Origin: Acanthamoeba castellanii str. Neff
Lineage: Eukaryota > Discosea > Longamoebia > Acanthamoebidae
Direction of reading: 5' to 3'
Assembly (NCBI RefSeq): GCF_000313135.1
Contig: NW_004457410.1
Coordinates: forward strand, 108,258 to 172,257
Length of the DNA: 64,000 nt
The notes below the pieces were generated by a model. That model worked only from the letters and a program-made list of their open reading frames with translations. It was not told the DNA's origin and made no database searches. Both the position numbers and the translations under genes were made by a program. Positions 2,034 to 10,295 of the stretch are shown in pieces (the stretch's first letter is position 1; each line of letters opens with the position of its first letter).

Positions 2034-4357
2034 CTAGTCGGCCTTCTTGGCGGCGGCGACGGCGGCGATGACGGACTTGCGCTTGGGGTAGGGGATGGTG
2101 AAGCAGCTGATGCCCAGGTGGTCGGCCAGGTGGCCCACCACGTCGCACACGAAGTGGACATAGATCAGCGCCGTCACGCCCAGCACCCCGTAGAACAGCT
2201 GCAGCTCGCTCACCAGCCCGTTGCTGTCAACATGCCCCCCCCCCAGTCAGAGGTGCCGGTTGGCGTGCGCGTGCGGTGTCACACACACACATATACACAA
2301 CACACACGAGGGAGAGGCGGGTGTACTTGGAGAGGAAGGTGCAGAAGAGAGGACCGACGATGGGGAGAAGCGGGACGGGGTTCCACACGTTGTACTCCGT
2401 GCGGGTGATGCGCGCGATCAGCATGCGGTTCTGGCGGGCGCGCCACGAAGAAGAATAATTAACCAACGATGAGCGAACGCCAAACGAAAAGGTAAAGAGG
2501 TCGCCGTACGAGAATGTAGGAGAACTGGAGGCCAGCGAAGAAGATGGCGGCCGTCGTGTAGTTCTGCAGCAGGTTGACTGCAATATTCAAGAATTATATA
2601 TATTGTATATATAATGAGTATACCCACCGATGATGTTATTGACTTGATCGTTTCTATCGCATGAAAGGAAGGGGCGTACTCTTGGAGAGGTGGAACCAGG
2701 CGGTGGAGGACAGGCCCGAAGCGGCGAGCGGGAAGAGGAGCAGCAGCGAACGCAGGAGGTTGGACTTGTGCTTCTTCACGTTACGCAGTACTACCACCGT
2801 GCTGCACAATCACATGGGCCACGCACGCGCCAGTAAGCGGTGTGTGCGATGTGTGTGTGTTGCGTGTGTGGTGTGTCGTGTGTGTGTGTGTGTGTGTGTG
2901 TCGTTGCTGCGAACGTACTTGACGAAGGCCATGGTGAAGCCACCGATGAAGAGGAGGCCCAAAATGGCGTTGGTGACGGAGAGGTCGGGGAGGTCGGCCG
3001 CCAGGCTCTCCACGCCCAGCGCCGTCTTCCACGACGTGCTCCACATCGCCGGTCCTGCGCGTCAAAGCCCCCCAAGTTGTGCGAGTGAGTGCGTGTGTGT
3101 GCGTGTGTGTGTGCGTGCGTGTGGTGTGTGCGATGAAGCGAGGTGAGGGGGTACCCTTGATGGCGGCGGTGAGGAGGAGCGCGCACATCACGAACTGGCC
3201 CTCGGTCGGGTTGGCCAGCACGCCCAAAATCAGCTCTCCCGTGTGATACCTACCGTACGTAGGTACCAGCAAAAACCCAAACACCCATCAATACCGCACG
3301 ACACACACACAACACACATATATACACACACACACAGCACGACAGGTATATAGGAGAGACCAAAGGTGAATTTCGTACTCTTCCCAGTGGGCCATGAAGA
3401 AAGGCATGGCCGTGGCCCAGAAGCCGGCCCACGCGGTCCACGGGCCCAGGTGCATGGCGTTGAACATCAACACGCCGGCGAACTGCAAAAACAAAACAAA
3501 ACAAAACAAAACAAAACAAAACAAAACAAAACAAAACAAAACAAAAAACAAAAAAATTTGAAATGAAATGAGAAATCAGAGTGCAACAAATTATGTTGAG
3601 GGGGGGTGCAAGCGTACGGGCACGAAGAGCGAGTCGCAGCCGTGGTCGAAGAGCTCGCCGAGCGGGGACGACGTGCCGGTCCGTCGAGCCTGTCGGCCGT
3701 CGATGTTGTCGAAGATCTGTGTGTGCGGTGTGTGTTGCGCGCGCGCGAGTGAGCACCACCGCACACGCCTGATAGCACGAAACGCACGACACGACAGGCA
3801 CACGGGGGCGGGGCTGGAGTTACTTGGTAGGCGTAGACGCCGAGGGCGGCGAGGGCGTAGACCCAGGAGGGCGCCACGCAGCCTACGGTGTTGGGGCAGT
3901 AGTAGAGCAGCGAGATCATGTTGGCCACGATGCAGATCAGCCCGCACAGCGTAATCTACGTACGTCATGTGTGCGTGTGCGTGTGCGCGTGCGCGTGCGC
4001 GGTGTTAAGACGAACGCACGCGACCCCGCACACAGAACCAGTGTCGCCGCACGTACCAGGTTGGGCCTGCGCATACGACACACACACACACACGCACACA
4101 CACAACGAGGAATTGAGAAAGCAGAAGAAGGAAGAAGGAAGATGAAGAAGATGAGCGTACGCCATCCAGATGGGGAAGAAGGTGACGGTGCACCAGTCCC
4201 AGTGGCGCTTGAGGAAGAGGTTGGCGAGGAGGGACTTGTCGGTGCCCGAGTAGCGGTAGTACTTGAGGTTGTGCAGACCCTCGGCGCTCAGGTAGGTCGA
4301 CGAGGACTTGCCGCCGCGCGAGCTCCTCTTGGTCTTCTTCACCTTCTGTGTCGACAT
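2034..4357 (-). CDS. Choline/ethanolamine phosphotransferase (CDP-alcohol phosphatidyltransferase)
   Basis: Integral ER/Golgi membrane enzyme that transfers phosphocholine or phosphoethanolamine from the CDP-alcohol to diacylglycerol, the last step of the Kennedy pathway. The start ATG is at 4357. The N-terminal exon reads [21 protein letters not shown], matching the LxxLxxYKYxGxDxS start of eukaryotic CEPT1/EPT1. The exon around 3630-3720 has the catalytic CDP-alcohol signature DG-x2-AR-x8-G-x3-D-x3-D (DGRQARR...GELFDHGCD). Several hydrophobic exons follow (for example [14 protein letters not shown] and [17 protein letters not shown]), as expected for a multi-spanning enzyme. The protein ends in a Lys/Ala-rich tail at the stop at 2034-2036. 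The gene is cut by many short introns, one with an AAAAC microsatellite. Choline versus ethanolamine specificity cannot be read here. Confidence 0.92.
3486..3558. repeat. (AAAAC)n microsatellite
   Basis: About 14 tandem AAAAC units lie inside an intron of the CDP-alcohol phosphotransferase gene, just upstream (on the minus strand) of an exon reading [13 protein letters not shown]. On the sense strand this is GTTTT-rich, unlike the GT/GTC repeats of most introns here. Confidence 0.95.
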
Positions 4358-4786
4358 TACGATGCTTGCTTGGCGCCAACAAACATTAGATCAATCAATC
4401 ATTCATTAATTAATAAATGTTAAACATTTATAATTTATGAAAAGGAGGGAAGCAAGCATGAAGGTGGGGAGGAGGGTGAGAAGAAATTGAAAATCAACTC
4501 ATTGGAATTTTAGCGTCAAGCTTCGCGTCGATATCGATGAACAAAGTGGTCACAAAGATCACTGAAATCTTCGTGAAGGTGGGTACCCACCTTGTGTTGC
4601 TAAGAATGAAGGATGGAAGCCAAAGCACAGGACTGTTGTTCGCGTCAGCTCTTTACTCCCACAGAACTCCGGAGAATTGAAAAGAAATTGCATTTCTTCC
4701 TTTCCATCTTTGTTAATTAATCTACGATCAAGACTGCGCCTGGGCCAGCTCCACTCCTCTTTCGTTCAGCTCACCGAACCCAACAA
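4358..4786. other. Intergenic spacer upstream of the phosphotransferase gene
   Basis: About 430 bp between the phosphotransferase start (4357, minus) and the stop of the next minus-strand gene (4787). The stretch at about 4385-4440 is very AT-rich (ATTAATTAATAAATG-like) and may hold the phosphotransferase promoter and the 3' processing signals of the upstream gene. No further gene is recognisable. Confidence 0.5.
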
Positions 4787-6036
4787 TCACAGGGCAAAGT
4801 GGCGGTGGATGAGGGTCAGGGTGTCGGCGAGCTCGTCGACATCGGCGCTGATCTCAAAGGCCTCGACGGCCGCACGCAGCGCTCGGTGGGCCTCCTGCGG
4901 CGGCTGCCCAAAGAAGCCCCGGGCCAGCCCGGCCGCAGACACAGCCTCGGCCAGACCCGCCACCGCCTCCGTCGTCGTCTTCGTTGAAGGCTGGGCCGCT
5001 GCCTGTTGGAGATACCACGGAGTCGGGCTGCTGAACTTGGCCTGCTGGAACTGCTGCTGCTGGAGGAGTTGCTGCTGGAGGTGTTGCTGTTGGAGGAGTT
5101 GCTGCTGCTGAACGAGTTGCTGCTGAAGGATCTGCTGCTGAAGGAACTGCTGCTGGAGCTGGTGTGGTTGATGTGGCACCTGGAGAGCGGGCCGGGACGT
5201 CTCTTGTTCTTCTTCGTCGACTTCCTCTTCAGAGTCCCCTTCCGATTCCTGCGGGCTGTTGTCGTATTCGTCGTCGTCGTCATCGTCAGAGATGGCTCCC
5301 CGCTTGGCCGGGGCGGTGCGGCCCTCGAAGGCGTTCTGCACGAGGGCCTGGGCCTTGGGCGCCAGCTTCTCGAACCCGAACAGGAACGATTCGGCCGTGG
5401 TGCTCCCATCGCGAGGGAAGTTCTTTACGCATGCGTGTACCGGCCAACTATGTGAGTCGTCACCCGCAGCAACACAGAGCCAGACGCAACGGGGGCATGT
5501 GTAGAAACAGACGTGGTGAGTGGGCACGAACCGGGAAGCAGTCGACGTGGTACCAGAGGTAGCCGCTGTGGTCCCGGTCGTACTGCTGGCCTGCAGAAAA
5601 ATAAAATGCAAAATTATCAGAAAAAATAATCAATAAAGAAGTCGAGTAGAAGGCACATTGTTGATGGATATAGAGGAAGAGGAAAGAGGAAGGGCGGGGC
5701 GGGATATAGGCACCGATGCGAACGGCTCCGTTGGGAATCTGTCGCGAGCAAGCCTTGCACTAGATGATGAAAAAGATGGCCTTGAGCATTGCGTAAAAGC
5801 AATTTGGAAGAGTTCAGAGACAGTACCTGAGAACGAGCACTCTTGGCGTACTCGACGCAGCACGGGAAGTCGCCGCCTCCACCCCGGCTCGGGACAGTAG
5901 CAGCGGACGGTAGCTGTAAAACAGGCTGCGCAGTCCCCCACGAGGGCGTCCCAAAGGCGACTCGCGAGGCGTCCATAGGCTTGCGTGGCGCTTTTCCTCC
6001 TGTTGACTTACGCGCGGTTTGCTTCGTCCTGGCCAT
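4787..6036 (-). CDS. Chimeric protein: histone H3 N-terminal tail fused to a PARP-type zinc finger
   Basis: About 316 residues from four exons: 6036-5827, then exons beginning near 5775 and 5594, then from about 5430 to the stop at 4787-4789. Residues 2-19 are ARTKQTARKSTGGKAPRK, identical to canonical histone H3 residues 1-18. The sequence then leaves H3 (PMDASRV...) and there is no histone fold. Residues 61-105 form a PARP-type CCHC zinc finger: VEYAKSARSQ, then CKAC (C71, C74), RQIPNGAVRIG, then WYHVDCF (H100, C103). In PARP1 and DNA ligase III this module binds DNA nicks and ends. After the finger come an FGFEKL...LVQNAFEG helix, an acidic D/E stretch, a long Gln-rich run, and a C-terminal helical segment ending HRHFAL. 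No PARP catalytic domain is visible. Likely a nuclear DNA-damage or chromatin protein with a histone-mimic tail. Splice sites are clean GT/AG and restore the zinc finger in frame. Confidence 0.85.
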
Positions 6037-6194
6037 CTCTTCGCTCCCGATCTGTTCAACTGTTTCCCTACTACCCTTCGATCTTGGGTTCGATTTGTGG
6101 ATGGCTGCCGCGCTTTTTTTGTTTTTGTTTGGCCCATAGTTCTTTTCCTCGAATCAATTTTTGCTTAATTAATTAAATTGGCCGATTTTCCGAT

Positions 6195-9100
6195 TCACGG
6201 CTGCGGGACGGCGCCTTCTTCCTCGAGCTTCTGCGCCTGGGGCTGCTCGGCGTGGATGGCGCTGGTGGCGTAGTACCGCACGTCCCGGTCCCGATCCTGG
6301 GTCAGCTTGGCCAGCATGTCCCCCACGTCCTTCCGCCCCTTGTAGGCATCTGATATTACACACGACACACACGACACACGCACACAGGCAGCGCGCGTGA
6401 AAAGGCCACCCCCCACGCACACGGGCCAATGGTGTCGCAGCAGACACCGAGAAAAGAGGGGGAGTACCCTTAGAATACAGCTTCGCGACCACCTGCGACA
6501 CGGCCACCCTCACGTTGGGCACCTGGCAGGCAAGGAGCAAAAACGCGGTCAGCACGTCACAGCACGCACGCCCGATGAAAGAAAGACGGAAAGAAAGAAG
6601 TGCAGGGTGCTGGTGGGTACCTTGTCGATGGCGAGTGCAAAGAGGTGGGGGAGGAAGGTCTCCACAAAATACTCGGGACTCACGTCGTCCACGATGGCAC
6701 CGCAAATATTGACATACCTGGCATACCACACCATACCACACCGCACCATTTCCCAGCGCCACACACACACACGCGACCGGTTAGAAGTCATCTACGACGT
6801 TGAGATAGTTACTACGAAGAAAACGAGAGCGAGAAGACGCAGACGTACATTTGGCGGTCGAGGTAGGAGGTGTCGGGGAAAGTCGAGGCGAACGCCACGA
6901 TCTGCTCCACGTACTCGTCGCGCATCCGCTGATCGCCTTCGGCCACGCGCCGCATCAACGGACCCACCTGACATGTACCCCCCCCCGCGCGCAGCGGCCA
7001 CGGTGTGAAAGGTGGTGAGTGTCGGTACAGGGTCAGGGGGGTGGTTGCATAGGGCAACGTAACGTACCGACATGTAGGCGGCCTTGCGCACGCCGGAGAC
7101 GGCGTCCTGGCACAGCTGAAGCGAGATGGGCACCAGGTGCTTGTTCACCACCGGCGCGCTGTACAGCGCACTCAGCTTCCCCAATTGTCTGTTGTTGCAG
7201 GTGGTGCGCGTAGTGAGTTGGGGAGTGCCACTGGCCGTTAGCAGCACATTCATGAATGCACCACCGCACACGCACACGCACACACGCACGCGCACGCGCG
7301 TGGTGAACGAGAGCGTTGCAACGAACCTGGCCATGAGCTTCCGAAATCGCCAGTTGGACGTCTCGTTGGTGATGTCGCACACGAGCGGCAGGTATTTCTG
7401 GGAAGAGTGAGAGAGAGAGAGGAAGAGAGAGAACGCGTGGAGAACATCGATGTGTTGTGGTTAGCTCCCAAAACGTCGGTGTGCTTGAGCGTGAGTGAAG
7501 TGTGGCACCTCTCGCGAGGCCTCCGACAGGACAGACAGAAACTCGCTGATGTGCTTCACCACGCCCACCTTGACCTGTACCCAGTACCACCGCTGCTCGT
7601 CAGCTGGCAGTGTCGTGTGTGTGTCGTGTGTGTCTGGTTAAAGAAAAAGCACCTCGTCCAGGTCCTTCATGAAGAGCTCGAAGAAGGGGCAGAGGTCCTT
7701 CTCGGTGAGCTCCTGGCCGAGGATGGCGGCCACCTCGTGGAGGGCGTGGGCCAGCGGTCGCCGCACCTTCCACTGGAGGTCCTTGACCAGGGCCTCGTAG
7801 GTGGCCTTCACCTCGCCCCACCGATCGCGCCCGATCGTGTAGATCACCGCCGGAAAGTCGAACGCGCAGTAGTTCACGATCTCGGCGTCGCCGTACTTGG
7901 TGGCGGCCGTCGGGGCCACCATGCCGTTGTAGAGCTGCAGCAGCTCCGGCGTGACCGCGCGGCCCTCGAAGGTCGCGATGAAGCGGCCCAGATTCTGGAA
8001 CGCCGCGCTCCTCACCCATCGCGACGTCTGCGCGTGTGTCATGTGTGTTTTTAGTGTCGTGTTGTCGTGCGTGTCGTGCCGTGTCGTGTCGTGTCGCGCG
8101 GTGAGTGCTGGCGTACGTCGTCGACGAGCTTCTCGAAGATGGGGATGAGTTTGGAGGCGCGCTCCTCTGCGGTGATGGACTCGGAGAGGGCGACGAGGCT
8201 CTCGGCGCAGGCCTTACGCACGCCCCAGATCTCGTCGTCGGCCATCTTCACGAACAGGGGCACGAGCTCCCGCGAGATCACCTCCTTCGGCACCGCCTGC
8301 GCTATGTTCCCTATCCTCCCCGCCACAGCCTGTTGTGCACACGACACACACACACACACACACACACACACAACACGACACACGACACACACACAACCGC
8401 ACACAACCGCACACAACACACATAGCCGATGAGCAACCAGAGGAGGAACGCTGTGCAGCTGCACTTGTTACCTTACGAACGCGGAAAGTGTCTTCCGAGA
8501 GCTTGAGCAGGAGCGGCAGCGCAAACTCGACGCACAGCTCGGGTCCCATGATCGGCGCCAAGTGGTGCACCAGCTGGTGGCCGTGACGGCGGTGGCGGAC
8601 AACTGTGAGTCGCGGAATTTCATACAAGGTCTGGCATTTCAGGAATGGGAACGATGCGCACCTGCGCGGCCTCCACGCGGTACTCCTCCTGGGTGGTGTC
8701 CTTGCCGAGGGTGGTGATGATCGGGAAGATGTGCTCCGACAGCAGCTGAGGCCCGCCCAGCGGTGGCTTCGCCAGGGCGCTCGCAATGCTCACCACCGAC
8801 TCGGTTGACGACAGCCGCACCTGTACGCCCACAACCACGGCACGATGAGCTCTTCGTGCTCCACGGGCACCCACGCACGCGGCCACACACACCTGCGAGT
8901 TGACATCTCGGGTAAAGTGGGCGACGATGGGCAGGAGCGCCTGCACGACCGTGTCGAGAGCGGCCTCCTTCCCCTCCTATGTGACACACACACACACACA
9001 TTGTGATTTTATACAGTGCTTTGGGTTAGTAACATCCATGGCATGGGCGCTCTCGCCGAGAAGAGTGTCGCGGTGCCGGTGGCTTAGGAAGAGACGGTGC

Positions 9101-9848
9101 GTGCCTGGAATAAATAAGCGGCGATGTGCGGGATCTGCTCGACCAGCGCCTGCCGAATCACCGGCTCCACGTCCTGTTGCAGCCACATGGGCAAAACAGA
9201 CGAACAACGGAATTCGAGACATGTTAGTTCAAGCGGCCAGCAGTCTCTCCGGCGAAAAGCGAAAGAGAGAGGAGGGGGGGAGAGATGGGAGGCAAAGAGC
9301 GAAAGAGACAGAGAGTGGATGGCCAGATGATGAGTGAGTGCGTACGCGTTGGATTTCTTTGAGGTAGGGGAGCAGCTGCGAGACGGTGTCCTCATAACCC
9401 ACCTCCTTCGCGTACTCTGACAGCTCGCGCACCAGGTACAGCCTACGTGTGTGCGGTGGTGCGTGTGCGTGTGCGTGAGAGAGTAAAAGAGAATGGGGGA
9501 GCACAAGGCAAGGGTACCGGTGGAGGATGAGGTCGCTGTTGATGTATCGCCTGATCTTCTCCAGCGCGCCGAGGGTGTCATCGATCTCGAGGTCCTCCTC
9601 CTGGTTCCCCGACGCTGCCACCCACAACAACGAGGTACCGATCATTGAGGCAAGTGTGTACCCGCAGCAGCACAGAGCACCCCAACAAATGCGCGCGAAC
9701 GTAGAGAAACAAGAGAGAAAGAGAGAGATGAAAGAAGACGTAGAGGCATGACCGTCTCGCAAGAGGAATTCAAAAAAAAAGGAGTATTACTGGAGGAGGG
9801 GGCGGTACCATCATCATCTTCCCCCTTGAAGCTCAAACTTGAGAGCAT
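6195..9848 (-). CDS. Protein phosphatase 4 regulatory subunit 1-like (HEAT/PR65 repeats)
   Basis: Scaffold/regulatory subunit of the Ser/Thr phosphatase PP4, built from PR65-type HEAT repeats. The start ATG at 9848 gives MLSSLSFKGEDDD, followed by a short intron and LEIDDTLGALEKIRRYINSD. Exons then match vertebrate PPP4R1 in order: EPVIRQALVEQIPHIAAY, FTRDVNSQVRL, MADDEIWGVRKACAESL, KLIPIFEKLVDD, SRWVRSAAFQNLGRFIATFEG. Later exons (WKVRRPLAHALHEVAAILG, AVSGVRKAAYMS) continue the repeats. The protein ends DVRYYATSAIHAEQPQ...EGAVPQP at the stop at 6195. Some 15 short introns interrupt it, many with CACACGACAC-type repeats. PP2A PR65 (subunit A) is the alternative, but the WGVRKACAE and SRWVRSAAFQNLG blocks favour PPP4R1. 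Confidence 0.82.
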
Positions 9849-10295
9849 ATCTGCGATATCTTGAATGAAGAAAAATGCCTTTCATGAATATGACGAAGCC
9901 ATGCTACAAAATCTAGAGGAAGTATTAAAAAAATTGCCAAAATTGTGGAGGGGGCAACGAACCCGTCATGCTGTCCTTGACTTTAGACACTAATTGGCTG
10001 AGTTGAAGCATCCACCGCTCACCACGTCAAAATCGTCGGGCGTAATCGGGGCCTCGTTTATGGCGTTTTTACTCCTCGATGTCTCGCAGACAGGAGCAGC
10101 GCGTTGTTGGAGAAAGACGATGAGAAATGCGTTCACGATCAACGACGCCCCAACGTGCTTTAATTCGTTGATCTGTGCCGATGCCTTGCCTCTCTCGTCC
10201 CCCCTTCTTTTGAATGCTCCTTTCGTAAAGTGTTTCCGTTTCAGCAATTTTTTTTAACTTGTGGCCTTCTCGCGGCACCAGCGCACGGCAGGAAC
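9849..10295. other. Divergent intergenic region between PPP4R1-like gene and coiled-coil gene
   Basis: About 450 bp between two divergently transcribed genes, presumably holding both promoters. An 85-codon ORF on the minus strand (9990-10247) and an 87-codon ORF on the plus strand (9994-10257) overlap each other. Neither has recognisable motifs or typical exon composition, so neither is called as a gene. Confidence 0.5.

Follow-up and report, generated by a model that had tools for sequence, protein, structure and literature searches.

The histone H3 tail as an N-terminal part of a predicted zf-PARP protein of Acanthamoeba castellanii and of unrelated VWA proteins

Known histone mimicry involves mostly short or approximate motifs. 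This is also the case for influenza NS1 and the SNAG-domain mimics, which resemble the H3 tail, as the protein described here does, and use that resemblance to engage chromatin machinery. In NS1, the H3-like motif is found at the C-terminal end (PMC12937675). PAF15, a nuclear protein, has an H3-like N-terminus that is reported to be recognised by the PHD finger of the H3 reader UHRF1 (PMC7060239). The H3 tail itself is a substrate for ADP-ribosylation: peptides comprising residues 1–20 are reported to be modified by PARP1/HPF1, and the S10A or K9A change abolishes or nearly abolishes the modification (PMC6172693). In the amoebozoan Dictyostelium, ADP-ribosylation of H3b at S10/S28 is reported to be required to bring Ku to breaks (PMC8758696).

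The gene studied here is located in 64,000 nucleotides of NW_004457410.1 from A. castellanii Neff (GCF_000313135.1; 38.4 Mb, 250 contigs), a stretch called the window throughout. It is predicted to have four exons on the minus strand (6036–4787), with introns that are all GT–AG, and to encode a 316-residue protein, the window protein, which begins with MARTKQTARKSTGGKAPRK. In order, the protein consists of the Met, H3 residues 1–18, a linker, the zf-PARP domain (residues 62–136), an acidic stretch, a Q-rich helix and a C-terminal helical module. Exon 1 (5827–6036, donor GTACTG) opens with the ATG at 6036–6034, followed in codons 2–19 (5980–6033) by ARTKQTARKSTGGKAPRK, and then passes through the linker into the beginning of the finger, so that tail and finger start are read without an intron. 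Exon 2 (5714–5759) encodes the zinc ligands C71 and C74, exon 3 (5532–5590) encodes H100 and C103, and exon 4 (4787–5422) contains the end of the finger, the acidic stretch, the Q-rich helix, the C-terminal module and the stop.

An in-frame stop lies 120 bases 5′ of the tail ATG. On the same strand, the upstream gene ends with its stop codon 158 bases before this ATG, and the gap (6037–6194) is likely to hold the promoter and 5′ UTR. The upstream neighbour (6195–9860, minus strand) was named by eye for its HEAT-repeat look of the PP2A A-subunit type, and the downstream gene (3965–4390, minus strand) for that of a CDP-alcohol phosphotransferase. A further ATG, out of frame, precedes that of the tail by 101 bases. 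Its frame (5814–6137, minus strand) reads MGQTKTKKARQPST, which is faintly H3-like, probably by chance because the sequence is A-rich. A public Acanthamoeba protein of 296 residues, P0001, equals the gene model letter for letter from Met21 onward; as this record lacks the first 20 residues, the tail is invisible in it.

All 18 tail residues are those of H3 1–18 from the genome's own two H3 genes (C79 and C90), exactly as the initial annotation had read them after the start Met. It had also judged the match to be beyond chance, and this is borne out: the uniform expectation for the 19-codon pattern is ~2.5e-16 in 38.4 Mb, both strands, and none of 100 shuffles of the window matched even a shorter, degenerate tail pattern. 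At the DNA level, 11 of the 18 codons differ from those of each H3 gene, all silently, and 12 of the 54 bases differ. Neutral simulation, in which 12 random changes were placed on the H3 tail, gave a mean of 7.6 amino-acid changes and did not give zero changes in any of 200,000 trials per H3 gene; codon and mutation bias are not part of this simulation, and the margin is large. Thus, the peptide has been kept and not the DNA, and the H3 tail on the zf-PARP gene is old and selected. This agrees with the earlier view that the tail is no recent copy of H3. GC at third positions rises from 0.58 in codons 1–19 to 0.67 in codons 20–70 and 0.80 beyond, and the tail codons are therefore richer in A/T at this position than the exons that follow, as had been noted.

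The finger matches zf-PARP (PF00645) in a Pfam profile search with 55.3 bits against a curated cut-off of 39.3, and its Cys-Cys-His-Cys ligands are invariant among five aligned sequences. The closest solved relatives are fingers 1/2 of PARP1 (E 4e-22), followed by that of ligase III (E 1e-7), which makes DNA ends the likely address of the finger. By sequence, then, it is a PARP-type finger of the DNA-break kind, and the fusion that was originally proposed is real, with the tail in the same exon as the start of a domain that scores above its cut-off. With an E-value limit of 1, eight Pfam families are listed for the window protein; the histone fold (PF00125), the PARP catalytic domain (PF00644), PF15715 and VWA are not among them. 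In an AlphaFold model (mean pLDDT 53), which served for disorder and helices only, nearly all of residues 1–57 score below 50 and the H3 tail is predicted to be disordered; blocks of the finger reach 84, and helices span residues 191–233, 280–294 and 300–314.

The C-terminal module recurs, at 54–59% identity, on C130 (L048, 47299–47487). There it stands after an apparent intron-containing histone gene comprising an H2B-like part (Pfam Histone, 43.7 bits) and then an H2A-like part. The latter was recognised by eye alone, neither of two pieces that were tried having matched Pfam, and the gene is possibly an H2B–H2A doublet.

A search with the finger alone produced six proteins: one with the tail as predicted, one with the tail in another frame, two that start at Met21 and two without a tail. 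The first, P0003, is a 422-residue metagenome protein that has the same first 19 residues and the same finger and is 40% identical overall. Its linker has diverged and its tail is identical; after the tail it reads VASKMARK, where this amoeba's H3 reads MASKSAKK. P0003 perhaps represents a transcript, as 1269 of the 1499 bases of its longest contig are in one unbroken frame. It comes from a separate dataset, and the presence there of the same join contradicts an assembly chimera. P0004 (193 residues, 3098-base contig) resembles the same first exon read in the +1 frame, 5′ of the same finger exons, and back-reading from this +1-frame protein suggests the same tail except that K14 is replaced by Thr or Ile. 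The Met21 starts are those of P0001, upstream of which the window DNA shows the tail, and of the metagenome protein P0002. The remaining two, P0121 and P0122, have predicted starts just before the finger. Apart from ~25 bases, the reading frame takes up the whole contig in both cases (1011 and 901 bases); the missing tail may thus be due to truncation and is no guide.

A degenerate ARTKQTA pattern occurs at five sites in the genome. Two are the H3 genes and one is the window gene; the others lie in a gene for a VWA-RING protein on C143 and in an ankyrin gene on C175. Under a uniform model, 0.14 sites would be expected for this pattern and 0.0006 for ARTKQTARK. The C143 gene (L028, 2704–5286) has seven predicted exons and encodes 696 residues with the N-terminus MARTKQTARKSVGGKAPRK, in which position 11 of the tail is Val; VWA scores 51.7 bits and the C-terminal RING 49.5 bits. 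On C175 (L047/L022, 21741–21760, minus strand), ARTKQTARK is found in an internal exon (...RGGARTKQTARKVWPGNAPKKMARFG...) that adjoins ankyrin repeats and, by reading of the sequence, is in phase with the neighbouring exons. The segment is internal and is without S10 (ARK-V). Pieces of a PARP catalytic domain are located 8 kb downstream on the same strand, and because a masked run of 4995 bases lies between them and the ankyrin exon, the single-gene link is one that we infer. Finally, open frames on C113 (L029) contain PARP (83.3 bits), two ubiquitin-like parts, FG-like repeats (17.5 bits, below the cut-off of 32.2) and the internal H3-like stretches TTARKSTGTKAPRKK and CRKSPGGKAPR, whose H3 match is weak (E 0.04). 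These all appear to lie in one gene. Three of the four non-histone carriers found in the genome are tied to PARP domains, one of them putatively.

On C113, the PARP, FG-like, ubiquitin-like and H3-like stretches are followed by a segment that weakly matches (E 0.08) the window protein's C-terminal module. A query with H4 residues 1–30 gave three matches in the genome, each covering residues 3–30 at 100% identity; these are taken as H4 genes and not as H4-tail fusions. The search for Haspin gave one match, under the cut-off, and that for HPF1 gave none, an outcome that the search's own control makes uninformative.

The C143 protein has 256 homologues, of which 120 listed ones (P0123–P0242) were analysed. 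An H3-like N-terminus is present in 58 of these 120 and 19 of the 58 have all 18 residues. The pattern that first picked these rows fixed T3 and Q5; a looser rule, which asks for at least five of nine matches to residues 1–9 after the Met, gives an identical set of 58, with no more than four of nine matches in any of the remaining 62. Among the listed homologues, the named carriers include bdelloid rotifers, sponges and the fungus Endogone, in addition to protist transcript sets, and the tail-less ones with an organism name are bacterial or archaeal. A RING pattern is found in 32 of the 58 tail-bearing proteins and a U-box in at least five members. In a quick tree built from 439 columns of the VWA part (tail excluded, rooted on one tail-less row, many long branches, without bootstrap), all 59 tail rows fall inside one group of 61 and three label changes are needed. 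The exceptions in this group are P0161, whose record starts without a Met, and P0173.

Mean pairwise identity in this family is 0.91 for residues 1–8, 0.69 for residues 9–18, 0.23 for residues 19–36, compared with 0.48 in the VWA core. Among 27 representatives that are at most 60% identical, R2, T3, Q5, T6, A7 and R8 are each present in all 27, A1 in 25 (Gly in two), K4 in 22 (Arg in five), K9 in 18, S10 in 23, K14 in 23 and K18 in 17. As K9–S10 is not the most conserved part, a reading based on ADP-ribose is not transferable to the VWA family. Some members (P0133, P0154, P0169 and P0170) have, as judged by eye, added H4-tail-like stretches. To our knowledge, VWA-RING/U-box proteins with an H3 tail have no known name. 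The tail is the sole part that they have in common with the window protein, and since it heads so different a protein family, it looks like a reusable protein part and not an accident. The statement in the initial annotation that no family has such a fusion was thus too narrow, as there is one relative, P0003, and an unrelated VWA family with the same N-terminus.

The window protein is tentatively proposed, at a little below an even chance, to be a nuclear adaptor with a built-in H3 tail that acts as a mobile substrate or docking platform in DNA repair. Here, the zf-PARP domain would bind DNA nicks or ends, and the free, disordered N-terminus would present H3 1–18 at these ends, nucleosome-free. 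PARP enzymes at the break could then modify the tail with K9–S10 as the acceptor, and ordinary H3-tail enzymes and readers could act around A1-R2-T3-K4 as they do on H3. The Q-rich helix and the C-terminal module may link several copies. As labelling of the H3 peptide depends on S10 and K9, a finger protein whose tail has a free K9–S10 could act as a mobile acceptor. Initiation at the upstream ATG, loss of the Met, localisation to the nucleus and to breaks, modification and the role in repair are steps that we infer. Counted in favour are the silent differences from H3, the same fusion in P0003, the homology of the finger, the predicted disorder of the tail and the published work on ADP-ribosylation, as well as C113 and C175, non-histone genes with H3-like segments that have PARP catalytic sequence in or near them. 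Counted against are the Met21 starts of P0001 and P0002, the out-of-frame ATG at −101, the possible change of K14 in P0004, the absence of S10 from the C175 segment, the internal position of the C175 and C113 segments, and P0121 and P0122, which are tail-less as predicted.

Alternatively, an H3K4-type reader or eraser, such as a PHD finger or an LSD1-like enzyme, could bind the tail as its ligand, with ADP-ribosylation secondary or absent. This is possible although rather doubtful. It is the N-terminal octapeptide that the 27 diverged VWA representatives keep, with K9 in just 18 of them, and the genome contains 20 PHD matches and two SWIRM matches, one over the cut-off. There is also a precedent in PAF15, whose H3-like N-terminus is reported to be both read and ubiquitylated by UHRF1 (PMC7060239). 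However, these conservation data come from the other family, and the zf-PARP protein keeps all 18 residues, including K9-S10-K14, which is beyond the needs of an octapeptide ligand. The tail might instead be a bait for the histone-modifying effectors of intracellular microbes, which the zf-PARP or VWA RING/U-box carrier would sense or remove. The carriers in amoeba, sponges and bdelloid rotifers are consistent with such a decoy, as are the RING and U-box counts above and the K14 that may be changed in P0004; according to a review, the Legionella effector RomA methylates K14 of H3, whose tail it binds, and Acanthamoeba is among the hosts of Legionella (PMC12937675). The decoy is nevertheless improbable, as the tail is also found in a fungus and zf-PARP points to DNA and not to defence.

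That the tail is outside the protein altogether, with translation from Met21 and an untranslated or vestigial upstream frame, would fit the starts of P0001 and P0002 and the out-of-frame ATG. Against this improbable reading stand the 11 silent and zero replacement differences from H3 across 18 codons, the full tail predicted for P0003 and the start context, with a purine at −3 for the tail ATG versus C for Met21 (both have G at +4). The match itself is all that speaks for an H3 exon captured recently by accident, or for a chimera of the assembly. This reading is barely conceivable and was rejected, given the silent divergence from both H3 genes and the same fusion in P0003; in P0004 the tail lies, in another frame, 5′ of the same finger exons.

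Searches were also made outside eukaryotes. The exact degenerate H3-tail pattern gave no stretches in the viral collection and 10 in prokaryote genomes. Five of the latter can be followed as H3 over more than 100 residues (L039, L042, L043, L044 and L046), L045 and L040 resemble H3 first exons, and L037, L038 and L041 extend over just 22, 28 and 19 residues. None reads as a fusion within its first frame, and we attribute them to contamination with eukaryotic DNA or to chance.

Should these tails be translated, assays of such organisms for H3K4, K9 and S10 marks, by antibody or mass spectrometry, may pick up non-histone proteins as well, and marks on the tail could have effects away from the nucleosome. 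The window protein would further offer a natural, separable H3 tail for testing what tail marks do nucleosome-free. Histone mimicry as such is known. A literature search judged mainly by titles, and covering few subscription papers, yielded no description of a complete H3 tail that is under selection and forms a module on two unrelated folds, and no title concerned with an H3 tail on zf-PARP or VWA proteins.

When compared with known systems, the window protein is, like PAF15/PCLAF (PCNA-associated factor; PF15715, “histone like domain”), a non-histone with an H3-like N-terminus, and it differs in having 18 of 18 H3 residues and zf-PARP without a PF15715 match. With PARP1 fingers 1/2 and the DNA ligase III finger, it has in common a zf-PARP domain with Cys-Cys-His-Cys ligands; unlike those proteins, it carries an H3 tail, and neither a PARP catalytic nor a ligase domain is listed by Pfam. 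It is identical to histone H3 (C79, C90) over residues 1–18 and departs at residue 19, the histone fold being missing. The H3-tail VWA-RING/U-box proteins have the same N-terminal module at residue 2 on a body that is unrelated. Taken together, the H3 tail may, with an evenly balanced probability, be a portable eukaryotic module without the histone fold: old on VWA proteins, often with a RING or U-box, where ARTKQTAR would be kept as a ligand, and separate on zf-PARP and other PARP-linked amoeba proteins, where all 18 residues would be kept and would, at DNA ends, accept ADP-ribose and dock readers.
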